Assembly: GCA_003054495.1 (NCBI GenBank)
Contig: CP028514.1
Span: 1,465,501-1,529,500 of the forward strand
Source: Carboxydocella thermautotrophica
Lineage (GTDB): Bacteria; Bacillota; GCA-003054495; Carboxydocellales; Carboxydocellaceae
Direction: 5' to 3'
Length of the DNA stretch: 64,000 bases
In this document: one piece after another, positions 1,981 to 45,428 of the stretch
Position numbering within the stretch: the first letter of the stretch is position 1
Layout of the letters: each line of letters starts with the position of its first letter
Notes under the pieces: model-generated
Databases searched by the model: none
The model's input: only the letters and a program-made list of their open reading frames with translations
What the model was told of the DNA's origin: nothing
Made by a program: the position numbers and the translations under genes

Positions 1981-2118
1981 GACCTACGGTAATATGTCAA
2001 GACCATAAGGTCAATATTTTCTAGTTTAGTTTTTTAAAAAAGGCAACAAAAAACCACCCTGTTTCCTAATATATTTGGAAACAAGTTACAAAAATGTAAA
2101 ACAGATTTTGGGTTGTCC

Positions 2119-3363
2119 TTAGTTTGAATCCCTCCTTTGCCCCTGGGGCATGTAAAGTTGGTTGCTGCGCAGCAGAGCATCAACCATACGCACTAACTTG
2201 CGTGCTGTGAGAACCAAGGCGCGGCGATGATGATGGGTTTTGCTTTCCCGGTACTTTCGGGCATAGAAATCCCGATATTCAGGCTCATGTTGCCGAACCA
2301 GATTGGCCGCTTGTACAAAGTAATAGCGCAAATAAGCATTACCCGTCCTGGTTAGCGGCGTTTCATCTGCTTCAAATTCACCTGATTGATGGCTACGCCA
2401 GGTTAAACCGGCGAATTTCGCCAATGCTGAATCGTTATTAAAACGGTGAATATTACCGATTTCAGCAATTAAACCTGCACACATTACAGGACCAAGACCT
2501 GGGACAGAATCAAGCGTGTGCTTAAAGTTAGCCAATTCCCTGGCAATGGCTTTATCAATGGTTTTGACCTGCTTTTCCAGGCATCTAATGGTTTCAAGGC
2601 TTGTAGCCAGGATCAAGTTAACCGGTTCCAGAAGATCTCCCCTTAACCTGTGAGCATTACGAGCAGCCTTTTTAAGCGCTTCAGCAGTAGCTTTGGGATC
2701 TGAAAAGTGCTTGTTACCTTTCTCCATCAGAAAATCAATTAAATCCTCAAGCGGTCGAGCCGCAATTTCTTCAGGAGAAAGGAACTCGGTTAAAATTGCC
2801 TCTGAAGTTGCGCCAAACAGGTTACTGAAGACCTCATTTTGTTGCAGGGTATTAAACTTGAGAAAAAGATTAGTGAGAAAATAGTTTTTCTCCCTGCTAA
2901 TAGTCTGCATCAGATGATAACGGAACCTGGTTAACCGCTGTAAAGGGAGATAACGAAAATCGACCTGGCTATTTTCCGGGAGACGGCCAAAACGAATCCG
3001 GTCAGCAATTACCCAGGCATCTGTCCAGTCATTCTTGGGAAGGTCAGGATAAGCCTTTTTAAAATTAGCTACTACTTTAGGATTAAAGGAATATACCTGA
3101 CAGTTATAAGGAGTTAGCCGGGTGTCAGAGGTTAACCCCATTTGCAGATGCCAGCTATACACTGAAGTTGCTTCCAACCCGACCATAACACAGCCTATAT
3201 CATTAGCCTGGCAAATTTCGAGGATAAGTTGAACCAGAGATTCCATGCCCGGATTATCATTTGAGAAACGCTGGCGTTTAGTGATTGTTTCTCCCAGGTG
3301 GTCCATAAATTGAACCTTAAAATCTTTCATACTGACATCAATGCCGACAAAAAGGTTTCTCAC
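2119..3363 (-). CDS. IS110-family transposase (DEDD recombinase)
   Basis: A 414-residue protein with the two family domains: an N-terminal RuvC-like DEDD domain (GIDVS near residue 9, GLEATS near 62-68, NDWTDAWVIAD near 130) and a C-terminal Transposase_20 domain (SVPGLGPVMCAGLIAEIG, then FAGLTWRSHQSG with candidate nucleophile Ser324 or Ser327). All parts appear intact, so the enzyme may be active. In this family the recombinase works with a structured RNA encoded in the element's non-coding end. It reads opposite to the fumarase operon it interrupts. Confidence 0.95.
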   Translation of the reverse strand: MRNLFVGIDVSMKDFKVQFMDHLGETITKRQRFSNDNPGMESLVQLILEICQANDIGCVMVGLEATSVYSWHLQMGLTSDTRLTPYNCQVYSFNPKVVANFKKAYPDLPKNDWTDAWVIADRIRFGRLPENSQVDFRYLPLQRLTRFRYHLMQTISREKNYFLTNLFLKFNTLQQNEVFSNLFGATSEAILTEFLSPEEIAARPLEDLIDFLMEKGNKHFSDPKATAEALKKAARNAHRLRGDLLEPVNLILATSLETIRCLEKQVKTIDKAIARELANFKHTLDSVPGLGPVMCAGLIAEIGNIHRFNNDSALAKFAGLTWRSHQSGEFEADETPLTRTGNAYLRYYFVQAANLVRQHEPEYRDFYARKYRESKTHHHRRALVLTARKLVRMVDALLRSNQLYMPQGQRRDSN

Positions 3364-3389
3364 AGTATCACCTCGCTTTCATAAAGAAA

Positions 3390-3560
3390 GTATAATGAAA
3401 ATTGCTGCTGGGACCCAGGCATCATGGCCGGTCAGCAACCTCGCCGGGAATGAGCACTAAACCTAAAGAACCTGCTTCCGTCCGTTCTGCTGCACACGGG
3501 CGGGGAAACAATAGGTCTGTGCAACCTACGCGTAAAAAGTGCAGACCATGAGCTGGGGGT
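3390..3560 (-). ncRNA. candidate IS110 bridge RNA region
   Basis: The long gene-free stretch upstream of the transposase holds two nested fold-backs on the transposase strand. One is closed by CTGCAC (3490-3495) and GTGCAG (3539-3544) and contains an inner TAGGT/ACCTA hairpin. The other is closed by TTGCTG (3402-3407) and CAGCAA (3433-3438). Two stem-loops just upstream of the transposase are what is expected of an IS110-group bridge RNA. The exact ends and the guide loops are not determined. Confidence 0.45.
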
Positions 3561-3759
3561 CACTCTTTTCAAAAGGTCAAGCCTCAAGGAGGACGAATAC
3601 CTACCCAGAAAGCAATCTCACGATTACATTGTGCCTGGAACAGCAGCAAAATGGAAGTCTAATTTCCAGTTTTTAAAGAACAAATTTGGTACAAAAAATG
3701 AACGGTTAATATTACCGTTCAGGTTAAATCTCTAAATATATGATACGAGGAGGTAAATT

Positions 3760-4314
3760 ATGGCTGAGATTATAATTACACCACCACTTACCGACGAAAT
3801 GGTTGAAAGCCTGAAAGCAGGTCAACAAGTATTAATTACAGGTTATATCTATACCGCGCGGGACGCAGCTCACAAAAAGTTGGTTGAATTAATCGATAAA
3901 AACGAACCCCTGCCCATCGAGCTGAAAGGTCAGATTATTTATTATGTCGGTCCTACACCTGCAAAACCCGGACAGGTAATCGGATCTGCTGGGCCTACTA
4001 CCAGTGGAAGAATGGACGCTTATACACCAAAACTCCTTGAAAAGGGTCTGAAAGGCATGATCGGCAAAGGACTCAGGTCCTCTGCCGTGAAAGAGTCAAT
4101 TATCAAAAATAAAGCGGTATATTTTGCTGCCATTGGGGGCGCAGGAGCCTTGCTGGCAAAATGCATTAAAAAAGCGGAAGTAATAGCTTATCCTGAACTG
4201 GGGGCTGAGGCAATTTATTCTCTTTATGTAGAAAACTTTCCTGTAATCGTCGTTAATGACTGCTATGGTAGTGACCTTTATGAATTAGGAAAAGAAAAAT
4301 ATGCAACAAGCTAA
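3760..4314 (+). CDS. class I fumarate hydratase, beta subunit
   Basis: The 184-residue C-terminal partner of the class I fumarase, with family sequence such as GQIIYYVGPTPAKPGQ and GPTTSGRMDAYTP. It completes the active site formed with the alpha subunit. The start follows a GAGGAGG site. It lies 14 bases before the malic enzyme gene, so the two are co-transcribed. The IS110 element separates it from the alpha gene and the operon promoter; a weak -35/-10-like pair (TTTGGT at 3685, TAATAT at 3707) near the element edge could supply some expression, which is inference. Confidence 0.93.
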   Translation: MAEIIITPPLTDEMVESLKAGQQVLITGYIYTARDAAHKKLVELIDKNEPLPIELKGQIIYYVGPTPAKPGQVIGSAGPTTSGRMDAYTPKLLEKGLKGMIGKGLRSSAVKESIIKNKAVYFAAIGGAGALLAKCIKKAEVIAYPELGAEAIYSLYVENFPVIVVNDCYGSDLYELGKEKYATS

Positions 4315-7649: not shown

Positions 7650-8101
7650 TGTTATTATATTTTCTCATTAATAGACCCTGTGAGTTGAAGCTTGTTTTAG
7701 GGGATCATTTTTTCGAAGTCGCCCGAACTAAACCTGAATTTATAGATGAATGGGAAAGCTATTGTCAAGAATGCGGAGCTAATTTTTCCTATTGTACTGC
7801 TGGATGCTGTGGATGGATTAAAAATAGTATCGATTGTCGAAGATTAATAAAACTAGTTACGGATATGCGTAAACCTCAGCTGCTATGGGAGATTTTTAAC
7901 TTTTACGAACAAGAGATTAATCCAGAACTTTTTTGGGATATAGTTTTACCCTATACAACCAGTGATAATGTTTTATCAGTTTTGGCTGATTTCTGGCAGC
8001 TAGCCAAGGAAAAAAATTTATTGCCGTTAGAATGGCATGCACTTGCCCAAGCCTTTCAAACGGCAACAGTATTAAACGAAGAGATTATTGTTTTTCGCTA
8101 A
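7649..8101 (+). CDS. unknown 150-residue protein coupled to the HEPN gene
   Basis: I do not recognise the family. The gene starts in a TAATG overlap with the HEPN-domain gene, with GGAGGT upstream, so it is very likely real and made together with it. It has a Cys-rich middle (ECGANFSYCTAGCCGW, near residues 46-61) that could bind a metal, and a helical C-terminal half rich in Trp and Leu. No signal peptide or membrane span is seen. Its 3' end overlaps the 3' end of the converging recombinase gene by 17 bases. Confidence 0.6.
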   Translation: MLLYFLINRPCELKLVLGDHFFEVARTKPEFIDEWESYCQECGANFSYCTAGCCGWIKNSIDCRRLIKLVTDMRKPQLLWEIFNFYEQEINPELFWDIVLPYTTSDNVLSVLADFWQLAKEKNLLPLEWHALAQAFQTATVLNEEIIVFR

Positions 8102-9035
8102 ATTCACTTTCCGGGTTTGTTAATAATGGGTTTAAAGCAGCTGATTGTTTTAGTTTTTCTTTAACAACATGGGTATAAATTTGTGTTGTAGATAGATCAG
8201 CATGACCAAGAAGCTCTTGAATATCCCGTAAGGGTACCCCCATGGAATGGAGTAACGTTGCACAGGTGTGGCGCAAGGTATGAGGAGTCACTTCAGAACC
8301 AAGTCCTGCTTTTCGTGCCAGAGTTTTAATTAAATTATACATTCCTATACGTGTAAAAGGTTTGTTGTATTTCGTTAAAAAGAGGTAATTGGTGCTCTGG
8401 GGACCTCTTTCGCTAATATACTCCTGCACTAACTGCAATGCTGGCCCTATTAATGGTACAATCCGATATTTCCCGCCCTTACCATAAACCGTTATTTCTC
8501 CGGCTTCAAGGTTGACATTTTCCAGCTTTAGGTTAATTAATTCCGAAATTCGCAATCCACACGTGAGAAATACATATAAGATAGCTTTATTTCTTTTTAT
8601 GTATTTAGTTTCTTCAGCACTGGCCAGTATTTTCTGGCTTTTGACTGTGGATAAAAACTTAGGCAATTCCCGGCGTCTGCGTTCCGTGTAGCCCTTGATA
8701 CGCAAGGTAGGATCCAGGGGAATAAACCCTTTAAATTCTAGGTATCTAAAAAATGCTTTGAGGGAAGCGATCTTACGAGCCAAGGTACTTTCCTTAACGC
8801 AAAGATTATCAGTTAAGTAGAGGATATATTCTAGAATAAGTTCAGAATTGATTTCCTCAATTTTAGAGATTTGCTTGGTTTCAAAAACCCAGCGAAAGAA
8901 CATTTGAATATCACTCATATAAGCATTTACTGTTGCTGGCGATTTTTTGCGGCTAACACCGGTTTGACCTAAACGTAAATGAACAGAAAAAGATTCCAGC
9001 AAATTATCTAGATCGGATATTGTAGCCGTTAACAA
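8085..9035 (-). CDS. Xer-type tyrosine recombinase
   Basis: A 316-residue site-specific recombinase with the N-terminal SAM-like core-binding domain and a complete catalytic domain: Arg162 (GLRISEL), Lys189 (GKGGKYR), His252-x-x-Arg255 (HTLRH), His278 (LLGHADL) and nucleophile Tyr287 (QIYTHV). The size and motifs match XerC/XerD/XerS rather than long phage integrases. The start is taken at a TTG preceded by GGAGG at 6-7 bases; the GTG nine codons upstream has no site. A perfect 16-bp palindrome with dif-like layout lies 22 bases upstream of the start. No phage or conjugation genes flank it. Confidence 0.88.
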   Translation of the reverse strand: MLTATISDLDNLLESFSVHLRLGQTGVSRKKSPATVNAYMSDIQMFFRWVFETKQISKIEEINSELILEYILYLTDNLCVKESTLARKIASLKAFFRYLEFKGFIPLDPTLRIKGYTERRRRELPKFLSTVKSQKILASAEETKYIKRNKAILYVFLTCGLRISELINLKLENVNLEAGEITVYGKGGKYRIVPLIGPALQLVQEYISERGPQSTNYLFLTKYNKPFTRIGMYNLIKTLARKAGLGSEVTPHTLRHTCATLLHSMGVPLRDIQELLGHADLSTTQIYTHVVKEKLKQSAALNPLLTNPESEFSEKQ

Positions 9036-9056
9036 AGTAAACCCTCCATTTTCTTT

Positions 9057-9094
9057 ATACACCTATACATAAGACACATTATGTATAGGTGTAT
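9057..9094. repeat. dif-like palindrome upstream of the Xer recombinase
   Basis: Two perfect 16-bp arms, ATACACCTATACATAA and its complement, flank a 6-base centre GACACA. The inner arms end CATAA and begin TTATGT, as in the XerC-6 bp-XerD arrangement of dif sites. No T-run follows the repeat directly on either strand, so it does not look like an intrinsic terminator. A recombination site or an operator are both possible. Confidence 0.6.
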
Positions 9095-9105
9095 CTATCT
9101 GTTTT

Positions 9106-9906
9106 TTATTTCCCCTCGATTTGACAATAATATGTATCCAGCAATGTTTCAAGCTCCTGGTTAATTTGTTCTAATTGCTGTATAGCTTGATCTAGCCGAA
9201 GTAAAAACTCCAATAAGTTCCCCAGCTCAACCATATCCAGGTTTGTCAAATGATTTTCTGCCTGTTTTATTAACTTATAGACATTAATGCCATCATTATA
9301 ATCAGAAAGGTCAATTTGTGCCTGACAAAAATCATTAGCCTCAATCTCAGTGATTAATGTTTTGGCTCGAAATAATTCGCTACTCAATTTGCTAACTTTG
9401 ATAATTAATAAAGATAGATTTTCTTTTTCCTGTAACAAGGAACGCAACTTCTGGTGGTTTCTTTCCAGTACAATTTCGGTAATTTCTTCACTGGATGCAA
9501 CCCGTACTTCATTGTGAACTCTGATGTAGACCTTATCCCTGACTAAATGCAAGTAACCTTGACCCCGTTCGACTCTTATTACTAGAACCTCTTTATCTTT
9601 TACCTTTGCTTTATAGATATCAGGCTTTAATGGAGGTGAAATAATATCCCTGCACAAATTAATAATTCTTTGCTCCAATAGATCATTGCTCTTAAAACCT
9701 ACTACCTGTCCATCATCATCGACTCCAACCAGTAAGTAACCTCCATCTGAATTGACAAAGGCTGCCAGGTCTTTCGCCAGCTCAAAATGCTGGGTAATTC
9801 TGGGCTTGTCTGCCTCTGGCAAAAATAACCCCCGTTTAAAATCCACGTGATTATTTTCACCGGCACTTATCATTGCCATTATTTGTTTAGCAGTCAAAGG
9901 TTTCAT
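9106..9906 (-). CDS. AlbA_2 (Schlafen-like AAA_4) domain protein
   Basis: A 266-residue protein whose first ~140 residues match the AlbA_2 putative DNA-binding domain: ENNHVDFKRG at the start, then DLAAFVNSDGGYLLVGVDDDGQVVG and the late RDKVYIRVHNEV segment. The remainder is a long helical, probably coiled-coil, region (ERNHQKLRSLLQEKENL onwards). The ATG overlaps the K+ channel stop as ATGA, so both are expressed together. Its role is unknown; proteins with this domain are often linked to regulation or defence. Confidence 0.8.
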   Translation of the reverse strand: MKPLTAKQIMAMISAGENNHVDFKRGLFLPEADKPRITQHFELAKDLAAFVNSDGGYLLVGVDDDGQVVGFKSNDLLEQRIINLCRDIISPPLKPDIYKAKVKDKEVLVIRVERGQGYLHLVRDKVYIRVHNEVRVASSEEITEIVLERNHQKLRSLLQEKENLSLLIIKVSKLSSELFRAKTLITEIEANDFCQAQIDLSDYNDGINVYKLIKQAENHLTNLDMVELGNLLEFLLRLDQAIQQLEQINQELETLLDTYYCQIEGK

Positions 9907-16481: not shown

Positions 16482-16528
16482 AGATAAAAAAAAGACTATT
16501 TTTGTCGAAAACGACAAAAATAGTCTTT
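16482..16528 (-). terminator. terminator of pgsA
   Basis: A perfect 17-bp stem (AAAGACTATTTTTGTCG and complement) with a 4-base loop includes the pgsA stop codon and runs into a T-rich tract on the minus strand. Confidence 0.9.
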
Positions 16529-43286: not shown

Positions 43287-45428
43287 CTATTTTTTTAGAG
43301 AATCCAAAAAATTATCCAGCTGCTCTTTCGAAAGCAAGACGGTGCGCGGCTTACTGCCCTCGTGAGGTCCTACCACACCAATCTGTTCCAGTAAGTCCAC
43401 TAACCGGGCTGCCCGGGCATATCCCACCCTCAGACGCCGTTGTAGCAAAGATGCTGAGGCCTGACCATGCTCAACTACCACCCTGACTGCCTGAGGTAAC
43501 AGATCATCGTCTATATTCTCCGGGCCCGCTGTTGTGTCTTCCGGTAAATTGATTACCTCTTCATTAAAAATCGGAGCTCCCAGAGTTTTCAGGTGACTAA
43601 CAATCAGTTCTATCTCCTCTTCTCCAATATAGGCGCCCTGAACCCTAATCGGCTTATTGGCTCCAATCGGATAATACAGCATATCCCCTCGCCCCAGCAG
43701 TTTTTCCGCCCCGGCCATATCCAGAATAGTTCGGGAATCGATCTGGGATGAAACAGCAAAGGCGATACGTGAAGGAACATTCGCCTTGATTAAACCGGTA
43801 ATAACATCCACAGAAGGCCGCTGGGTAGCAATTACGAGATGAATACCAGCCGCCCGCGCCATCTGAGCGAGGCGACAAATAGCATCCTCTACATCGGCAG
43901 GCGCCACCATCATCAAGTCAGCCAGCTCATCAATAATTACAACGATATAGGGCAATGGTTTCTGGTTTTGTTTTTGCAACCAGTTGTTGTAGCCTTCGAT
44001 ATTTTTTACTTTGGCCTCAGCGAAACTGGTATAGCGTTTTTCCATTTCCATTACCGCCCAGCGCAAGGCACCTGCAGCTTTTTTGGGATCCGTAACCACT
44101 GGAGCCAGCAGATGCGGAATGCCATTATAGATGGATAATTCCACCATTTTAGGATCAATCAGCATGAACTTGACTGTTTCTGCCCCCGATTTATATAGAA
44201 TACTGGTAATAAGACTATTAATGCAGACAGATTTTCCTGAGCCCGTAGAACCAGCTACCAAAAGATGGGGCATCTTGATCAAGTCAGCCACCACCGGTTG
44301 ACCAGCAATGTCCTTCCCCAGAGCCACAGTGAGAGGCGATGGACTGTTCTTAAACTGAGGACTTTCAATTACTTCTTTTAAAAACACAGGGGCAGGAGTT
44401 TTATTGGGCACTTCAATTCCTACTGCTGCCTTGCCGGGGATGGGTGCTTCAATTCTCACCTGTGCTGCTGCCAGGGAAAGGGCAATATCATCAGCCAGGT
44501 TGACTATCCGGCTAACTTTAATTCCAGGGGCAGGTTGAATTTCGTAACGGGTGATAGTTGGGCCTACGCTGACCTGCTGAACTTTTGCCTTTACCCCGAA
44601 GTTATCCAGGGTTTGTTCTAGCAAAGCAATATTTTTATTAATTTCATCCTCTGACAGGGTGAAATTGCTATTTGCTGGTGCTCGTAACAATTCGATATCC
44701 GGCAAGGCCGCACTTTCAGCTCTTTTGCTGTCTGTGTCAATTTCTGCAGTAATGATAGGTTCAGGCGGATTGCTAACAACCTCTGTTCTTACCAGAACCT
44801 GCTCTTTTTCTGCAGACTTTACTTTAGTACTCGTTCTGGTCCTGGCTTTTCCTTCTTCTCTGGGCTTCTGGCGGGATGAAACTAATCTGGTCATTATTCC
44901 TGTTAAAACTTCCTTTGTCCTGGAATAGAGCCAGCGTAGCCCGCTGCTGGCCGAAACTTCTGAAATTATTAATACCCCTGTCAAAAATAAAGAAATGATA
45001 ATAACATAACTACCAGCCTTACCAAAAAGTTTCAGCAAAATCCAGCTAAAAGCTGCTCCCAGAAGTCCTCCTCCAAGCCCACCGCTGGCATAAGCAAAAA
45101 ACCCTTCCGCAGGAATATCCATATGCAAATAGGCTAAAACGCTAAGCAATACCAACCCGGCGCCAGTAAGCCTCTTCTGCCATGCCGCCTGAGCCCAGTA
45201 AAACAGGCGATAAAAACCAATATAAAATAAAAAAAAGGGAAAAAACCATACACCTTCACCGAACAAGGAAAAAAGAAACTTGCGCATATAGATGCCCAGC
45301 AGGCCAATTTGGGCAGCGGATTTTTCTAAAATAATCAAAAAAGTTAAAATAGCCAGGGCTATCCATCCTATCCCCTTAAGCTCGTTTTTAAATCTCGTAC
45401 TGGTTTGGCTTGGTTGTACCTTAGGCAC
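43287..45428 (-). CDS. spoIIIE: FtsK/SpoIIIE-type DNA translocase
   Basis: A 713-residue septal DNA pump. Four membrane helices fill about residues 20-165, a charged linker follows, then the motor domain with Walker [10 protein letters not shown] near 390 and Walker [11 protein letters not shown], and the C-terminal gamma domain that reads orientation sequences ([20 protein letters not shown]). It moves the chromosome into the forespore or resolves it at division. GTG start behind GGAGG. The order tepA-ylzJ-spoIIIE is as in Bacillus, with uppP inserted here. Confidence 0.94.

Follow-up and report, generated by a model that had tools for sequence, protein, structure and literature searches.

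A Xer-type tyrosine recombinase gene and the perfectly palindromic site beside it, on the chromosome of Carboxydocella thermautotrophica, very likely constitute a self-contained Xer/dif module that resolves chromosome dimers with a single recombinase and differs from XerS. They lie in a stretch of 64,000 nucleotides (contig CP028514.1, positions 1,465,501 to 1,529,500), called the window here, whose coordinates are used unless the chromosome (C1) is named. The observations behind this assignment are the sequence of the site, its uniqueness and its position at the terminus, the lack of XerC/XerD and of a canonical dif in the genome, and the recurrence of the arrangement across families.

The Palindromic Site and the Recombinase Gene

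The dif-like site occupies positions 9057 to 9094, with no strand assigned. Direct reading shows an exact palindrome, in which 16-bp inverted arms, ATACACCTATACATAA (9057–9072) and TTATGTATAGGTGTAT (9079–9094), flank the 6-bp centre GACACA (9073–9078). The inner 28 bp (9062–9089) read CCTATACATAA GACACA TTATGTATAGG and have the 11-6-11 layout of dif. Their TTATGTA is common to the XerD arm of the Firmicute dif, TTATGTAAACT, as found in canonical dif matches in relatives. The chance expectation for perfect 16-bp arms with a 6-bp spacer is ~6e-5 per 64 kb, and only one of 2000 shuffled versions of the 400-bp neighbourhood contained a perfect 11-6-11 palindrome. The palindrome core is single-copy, and every other place in the genome differs from it by at least three mismatches.

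The recombinase gene is on the reverse strand (8085–9035). Its longest open frame begins at GTG 9062 and takes in part of the palindrome. Translation most likely starts at TTG 9035, which follows GGAGGG (9042–9047, reverse strand), by direct reading a likely ribosome-binding site 6 nt before the TTG. The protein has 316 aa from this TTG, and 316–325 aa depending on the start chosen. It is complete, with the Phage_integrase and SAM-like domains of Pfam (PF00589 and PF02899) and the full R-K-H-R-H-Y set (R171, K195, H261, R264, H287, and Y296 in the numbering of the GTG-started frame). The fold is settled by the sequence alone. A previous sequence-only reading of this DNA had described the perfect palindrome, its dif layout with the dif-like inner edges, and a complete Xer gene downstream, and all of these hold. 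It had placed the palindrome 22 bases before the gene. The upstream position is right, and the gap is 21 bases counted from TTG 9035.

The second strain, G061, is ~99.9% identical to the window genome over 14 kb. One outer base of the palindrome is changed there, ATACACC reading ATGCACC, which leaves the arms symmetric over their inner 13 bp. The class of the organism is represented by four genomes, two near-identical strains of one species and two distant genomes. The palindrome search within the class therefore added the second strain only, and the conservation of the window's own site is weakly tested by this sample.

Several neighbouring features were observed. The gene directly upstream of the site (9106–9906) encodes an AlbA_2 (Schlafen-type) domain on the same strand as the recombinase. 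An IS110-family insertion (1982–3743, transposase 2119–3363) is absent from G061 and lies between what appear to be the genes of the two fumarase subunits (1132–1980 and 3760–4314). Another copy of its transposase adjoins L002 (G000:C1 ~1952984–1953826), a second XerC/D-like gene with internal stops. Between genes, at 16491–16528, a perfect inverted repeat of 17 bp around a 4-nt loop resembles a terminator.

Classification of the Recombinase

The protein scores below the curated equivalog cut-offs of both XerC (226.6 against 335.15) and XerD (238.1 against 329.6), and far below that of the XerS model NF003462 (105.9–129.5 against 267). The score with the XerA model NF040815, 209.8, is narrowly below the cut-off of 220, a value that XerC and XerD also clear. 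Among structures in PDB, the match to XerH (7e-23) is weaker than that to XerD (4e-36). In the phylogenetic tree, XerC and XerD form a supported clade (98/91) with the window protein outside it. The window protein joins the proteins of families f27 and f106 (95/82), on a long branch and with 31–36% identity to four other aligned members.

The gene belongs with the terminus-linked Xer lineages of Bacillota, separate from XerC, XerD, and XerS. The terminus Xers may belong to one clade or to several. No description of this recombinase group was found in the openly available published papers, and the models searched give it no name; it may have been mentioned earlier elsewhere.

Other Recombinases and dif in the Genome

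Four tyrosine recombinases in the genome match Pfam, the window gene included. The other three comprise a plasmid recombinase, an open frame broken by internal stops, and an integrase that carries an arm-DNA-binding domain. No further XerC/D-type gene in the genome scores above the family cut-offs, and the window gene is the single chromosomal recombinase of that type. In the second strain, the XerD model has a single match, and it is this same gene. A partner recombinase with an asymmetric dif, as in the XerC/XerD system, was not found in the genome. The canonical Firmicute dif core is absent from it at up to 3 mismatches; the core is present in 38 of the 61 genomes searched. Two genomes of the same order, G001 and G002, have both XerC and XerD above the curated cut-offs. 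Thus, the lineage of the window appears to have replaced XerC/XerD.

Position at the Replication Terminus

The chromosome has 2,690,058 bases and starts at dnaA. In sampled 20-kb stretches, the G-C skew stays positive between dnaA and C1 1.44 Mb and is negative in all samples beyond 1.48 Mb; the genome-wide skew comes from these samples and is contiguous only across 1.44–1.53 Mb. Within the contiguous stretch the cumulative G-C maximum is at window position 8402. A plateau within 20 counts of the maximum, marking the replication terminus, spans 8153–9094 (no strand) and ends on the last base of the palindrome. The purine skew maximum agrees with the G-C maximum at the site, and the prevailing gene direction switches near it. 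The keto-skew maximum is not at the site; it falls at window position -16038. KOPS-like and SRS-like words are skewed toward the terminus on both chromosome arms, a bias that follows the general strand skew and is therefore left out as evidence.

The site is unique, intergenic, palindromic, low in GC, and located at the GC-skew switch, as expected of the dif of a single-recombinase system. A lone Xer beside its own dif was the central proposal of the sequence-only reading. Three of the checks suggested there, a search for other Xer genes, a search for further copies of the palindrome, and the GC skew, turned out in its favor. Two findings had been named there as speaking against it: a canonical dif with XerC and XerD elsewhere, and a palindrome that is a repressor site or is missing in relatives that keep the gene. 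Neither was found.

Comparison with Known Systems

XerS/difSL, XerH/difH, and XerA have been reviewed as single-recombinase systems, and linkage between site and gene is a possible hallmark of XerS and XerH (PMC5357621). XerS/difSL of streptococci and lactococci resembles the window in that there is one recombinase, whose gene adjoins the site at the terminus. However, XerS has 356 aa against 316–325 aa, and the window protein is far from satisfying the XerS model. difSL is 31 bp long, its arms are unequal and imperfect, and its centre measures 11 bp (PMC5357621), while the window site has neither this 31-bp layout nor an 11-bp centre. The identity with XerS was rejected on the NF003462 score and the site layout. 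XerH/difH of Helicobacter and Campylobacter also has one recombinase with the site near its gene. XerH has 354–362 aa (PMC5357621); the window protein is shorter and its structural match to XerH is weaker than that to XerD, and it was not assigned to XerH.

XerA/dif of archaea shares with the window the single recombinase, the 11-6-11 layout, and the near or complete identity of the arms. The dif arms of Thermococcales XerA have few or no mismatches (PMC2958812), and some xerA/dif modules are adjacent (PMC5357621). XerA is, however, archaeal and without an FtsK homologue, whereas the genome of the window has two FtsK gamma proteins. XerL/dif of Legionellales combines one recombinase with a perfectly symmetric site. 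The arms are 10 bp in Legionella and 12 bp in Coxiella, and dif sites outside Legionellales are said to have only partial dyad symmetry (PMC9765430). The uninterrupted symmetric arms measure 16 bp in the window and 13 bp in the second strain, against at least 10 bp for an XerL-type site. XerL is gammaproteobacterial and its gene is unlinked from dif, at a distance of >400 kb in L. pneumophila (PMC9765430), whereas the window gene adjoins its site. Full symmetry of the site, which the sequence-only reading considered new, has precedents in Legionella and Coxiella (PMC9765430) and a near precedent in Thermococcales (PMC2958812).

XerC/XerD-dif has in common with the window the domains, the catalytic residues, the 11-6-11 layout, and the TTATGTA of the XerD arm. 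It differs in having two recombinases and unlike arms, and the window protein is below both cut-offs and outside both clades. Cre-loxP is a phage system with 13-bp arms and an 8-bp spacer. The window module would work like it, with one recombinase, perfectly inverted arms, and an asymmetric spacer.

Recurrence in Other Families

A scan of genome contigs yielded five Xer loci, all distant. Neighbouring outgroup Xers likewise adjoin perfect 11-6-11 palindromes. When a profile built on five such Xers was run against 398 phylum genomes, ~41 related genes scored ≥317 bits and stood apart from the rest at ≤299 bits. In most closed genomes, the related genes are near the middle of the contig. A perfect 11-6-11 palindrome adjoins this type of gene in f1 (the family of the window), f27, f28, f41, f67, f84, f99, and f126. 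At least seven families of the phylum besides that of the window thus show the symmetric-site arrangement. The right arms are TTTTGTACAGT (f27), TTTTGCGAAAT and relatives (f41), TTTCGTATAAT (f67), TTTTGTGCAAT (f84), TTTTACGAAGT (f126), TTTTGTGACTA (f99), and TTTTGTTGCTT (f28, downstream), compared with TTATGTATAGG in the window. G044 (f45) has a 12-5-12 variant at the stop codon. Its locus L110 carries two perfect palindromes, one upstream and one over the stop codon (GATTAACATAA TCAAA TTATGTTAATC), and the genome keeps XerD.

With a strict search interval, 6 of 13 families have a perfect site, compared with 2 of the 45 XerC/D-type loci (Fisher p = 0.0009). This count misses f84, owing to the start call, and f126, whose one genome in that set has a 10/11 copy; the copy in its other genome, G310, is perfect. 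The f27 site is identical at 28 of 28 bases across three genera with diverged flanks. The f67 site is identical at 26 of 28 across two genera, the arms being identical and only two central bases different.

The gene is at the skew flip in the window genome and in all eight further site-bearing genomes tested (G027, G040, G044, G320, G086, G151, G310, and G117), with maxima 0–6 kb from the gene. G226 (f65) and G201 (f100) have the same type of recombinase without an adjacent perfect symmetric site, and there the gene is not at the flip. Their dif may be elsewhere in the genome. In the control G038, neither XerC nor XerD is at the skew flip. The gene of G176 is likewise at the flip, but no convincing site accompanies it; nearby palindromes are terminator-like and were not counted. 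Probable terminators can have the perfect 11-6-11 form as well (22 such palindromes in 396 kb of sampled flanks), and those at L011 and L019 are terminator-like and beside XerC/D-type genes. Thus, a single site was counted only where terminus position or conservation backed it. An XerD-like gene is retained in some genomes of the wider group (f67, f84, f45, f139, and others), though not in that of the window, so the term single recombinase applies only to genomes without one.

Alternative Explanations

The case for dif over an operator is made most strongly by the link between site and terminus. A palindrome just upstream of a gene start could be bound by an autorepressor or another regulator, or could form a 5'-leader hairpin, and control the recombinase gene with no crossover at all. 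Its RNA form is a 16-bp hairpin (z = -4.9), and the f84 site lies between a TTGACA/TATAAT promoter-like stretch and the ATG. Such control does not explain why genes with the palindrome are at the skew flip and those of G226 and G201, which lack it, are elsewhere. Moreover, the G027 site is downstream of its gene, no other dif was found in the genome of the window, and the inner edges of the site are dif-like. The strain difference breaks an outer pair with no compensating change. A purely regulatory role is very improbable, though regulation and recombination at the palindrome may coexist.

We consider it just as doubtful that the pair is the recombinase and attachment site of a mobile element, located by chance at the terminus, where Xer-using elements often insert. 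Such elements integrate at dif (PMC5357621), and the protein is divergent from XerC and XerD. On the other hand, ordinary chromosomal genes surround the pair, the site occurs once and a second att is missing, the genome would otherwise be left with no visible resolution system, and the same arrangement is at the terminus in several families. An intrinsic transcription terminator is scarcely credible: a scan flags the palindrome as terminator-like on the forward strand, but no gene on that strand ends nearby (nearest 8101), the reverse strand, where the genes lie, has no T-run after it, the stem is A+T-rich beside the loop, and the equivalent sites in other families are isolated conserved islands.

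Proposed Mechanism and Polarity

For the single-recombinase module, it is proposed that the terminus-encoded Xer would bind the two identical arms of the adjacent dif as two identical protomers. Two sister dif sites would synapse, probably at the septum, and four protomers would cleave and exchange strands in two rounds via a Holliday junction, converting a chromosome dimer into monomers. The recombinase might also regulate its own gene. An FtsK/SpoIIIE-type translocase probably supplies the timing. The candidate activator is the FtsK gamma domain encoded at 43332–43511 on the reverse strand (PF09397, 98.7 bits). The genome has two FtsK gamma proteins, the second at C1:242264, and either may take part.

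The asymmetric 6-bp centre (9073–9078, forward strand) is the candidate strand-exchange region and would enforce parallel alignment. In Cre-loxP, the spacer sets the polarity. GACACA is fully asymmetric and has no self-complementary pair, and it is therefore able to define a parallel alignment; by analogy with the loxP spacer, it could set the polarity of the site. The new polarity mechanism that the sequence-only reading derived from the symmetry is thus not required.

Four f67 genomes have the centre TAACTA and two have its exact reverse complement, TAGTTA; these two come from different genera, and each of the two genera has both forms. Upstream of the Xer gene, L132 and L135 have identical arms but opposite centres to L126, L128, L134, and L137. 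Because the arms are symmetric, a reverse-complement centre amounts to flipping the whole site with respect to the gene. This suggests that the orientation of the site relative to the gene is unconstrained in f67. An alternative explanation for the two centres is that paired transitions arose in both genera.

We lean slightly toward a broader reading, in which several lineages of the phylum have swapped XerCD for an unnamed terminus Xer acting on an adjacent symmetric dif. Since such arms carry no polarity, the orientation would be set by the short centre alone and would be free with respect to the gene.

Significance

XerCD-dif is regarded as nearly universal among bacteria, and XerS, XerH, and XerL count as the exceptions. 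Further terminus Xers over many families, marked by adjacent symmetric sites, suggest that the XerC/XerD pair was replaced repeatedly. What appears to be new is a terminus-linked symmetric module across families, which would have replaced XerCD in the lineage of the window and whose centre is seen in both orientations in one family. Prediction of bacterial dif has been seeded on XerCD and the canonical dif (PMC3025954). The adjacent symmetric sites offer a sequence-only route to dif where such XerCD-based prediction would fail. These simple Cre-like systems, some of them in closed genomes, could be used to probe the purpose of the asymmetry of the classical dif and the division of labour between XerC and XerD, and whether the control by FtsK needs either of them.
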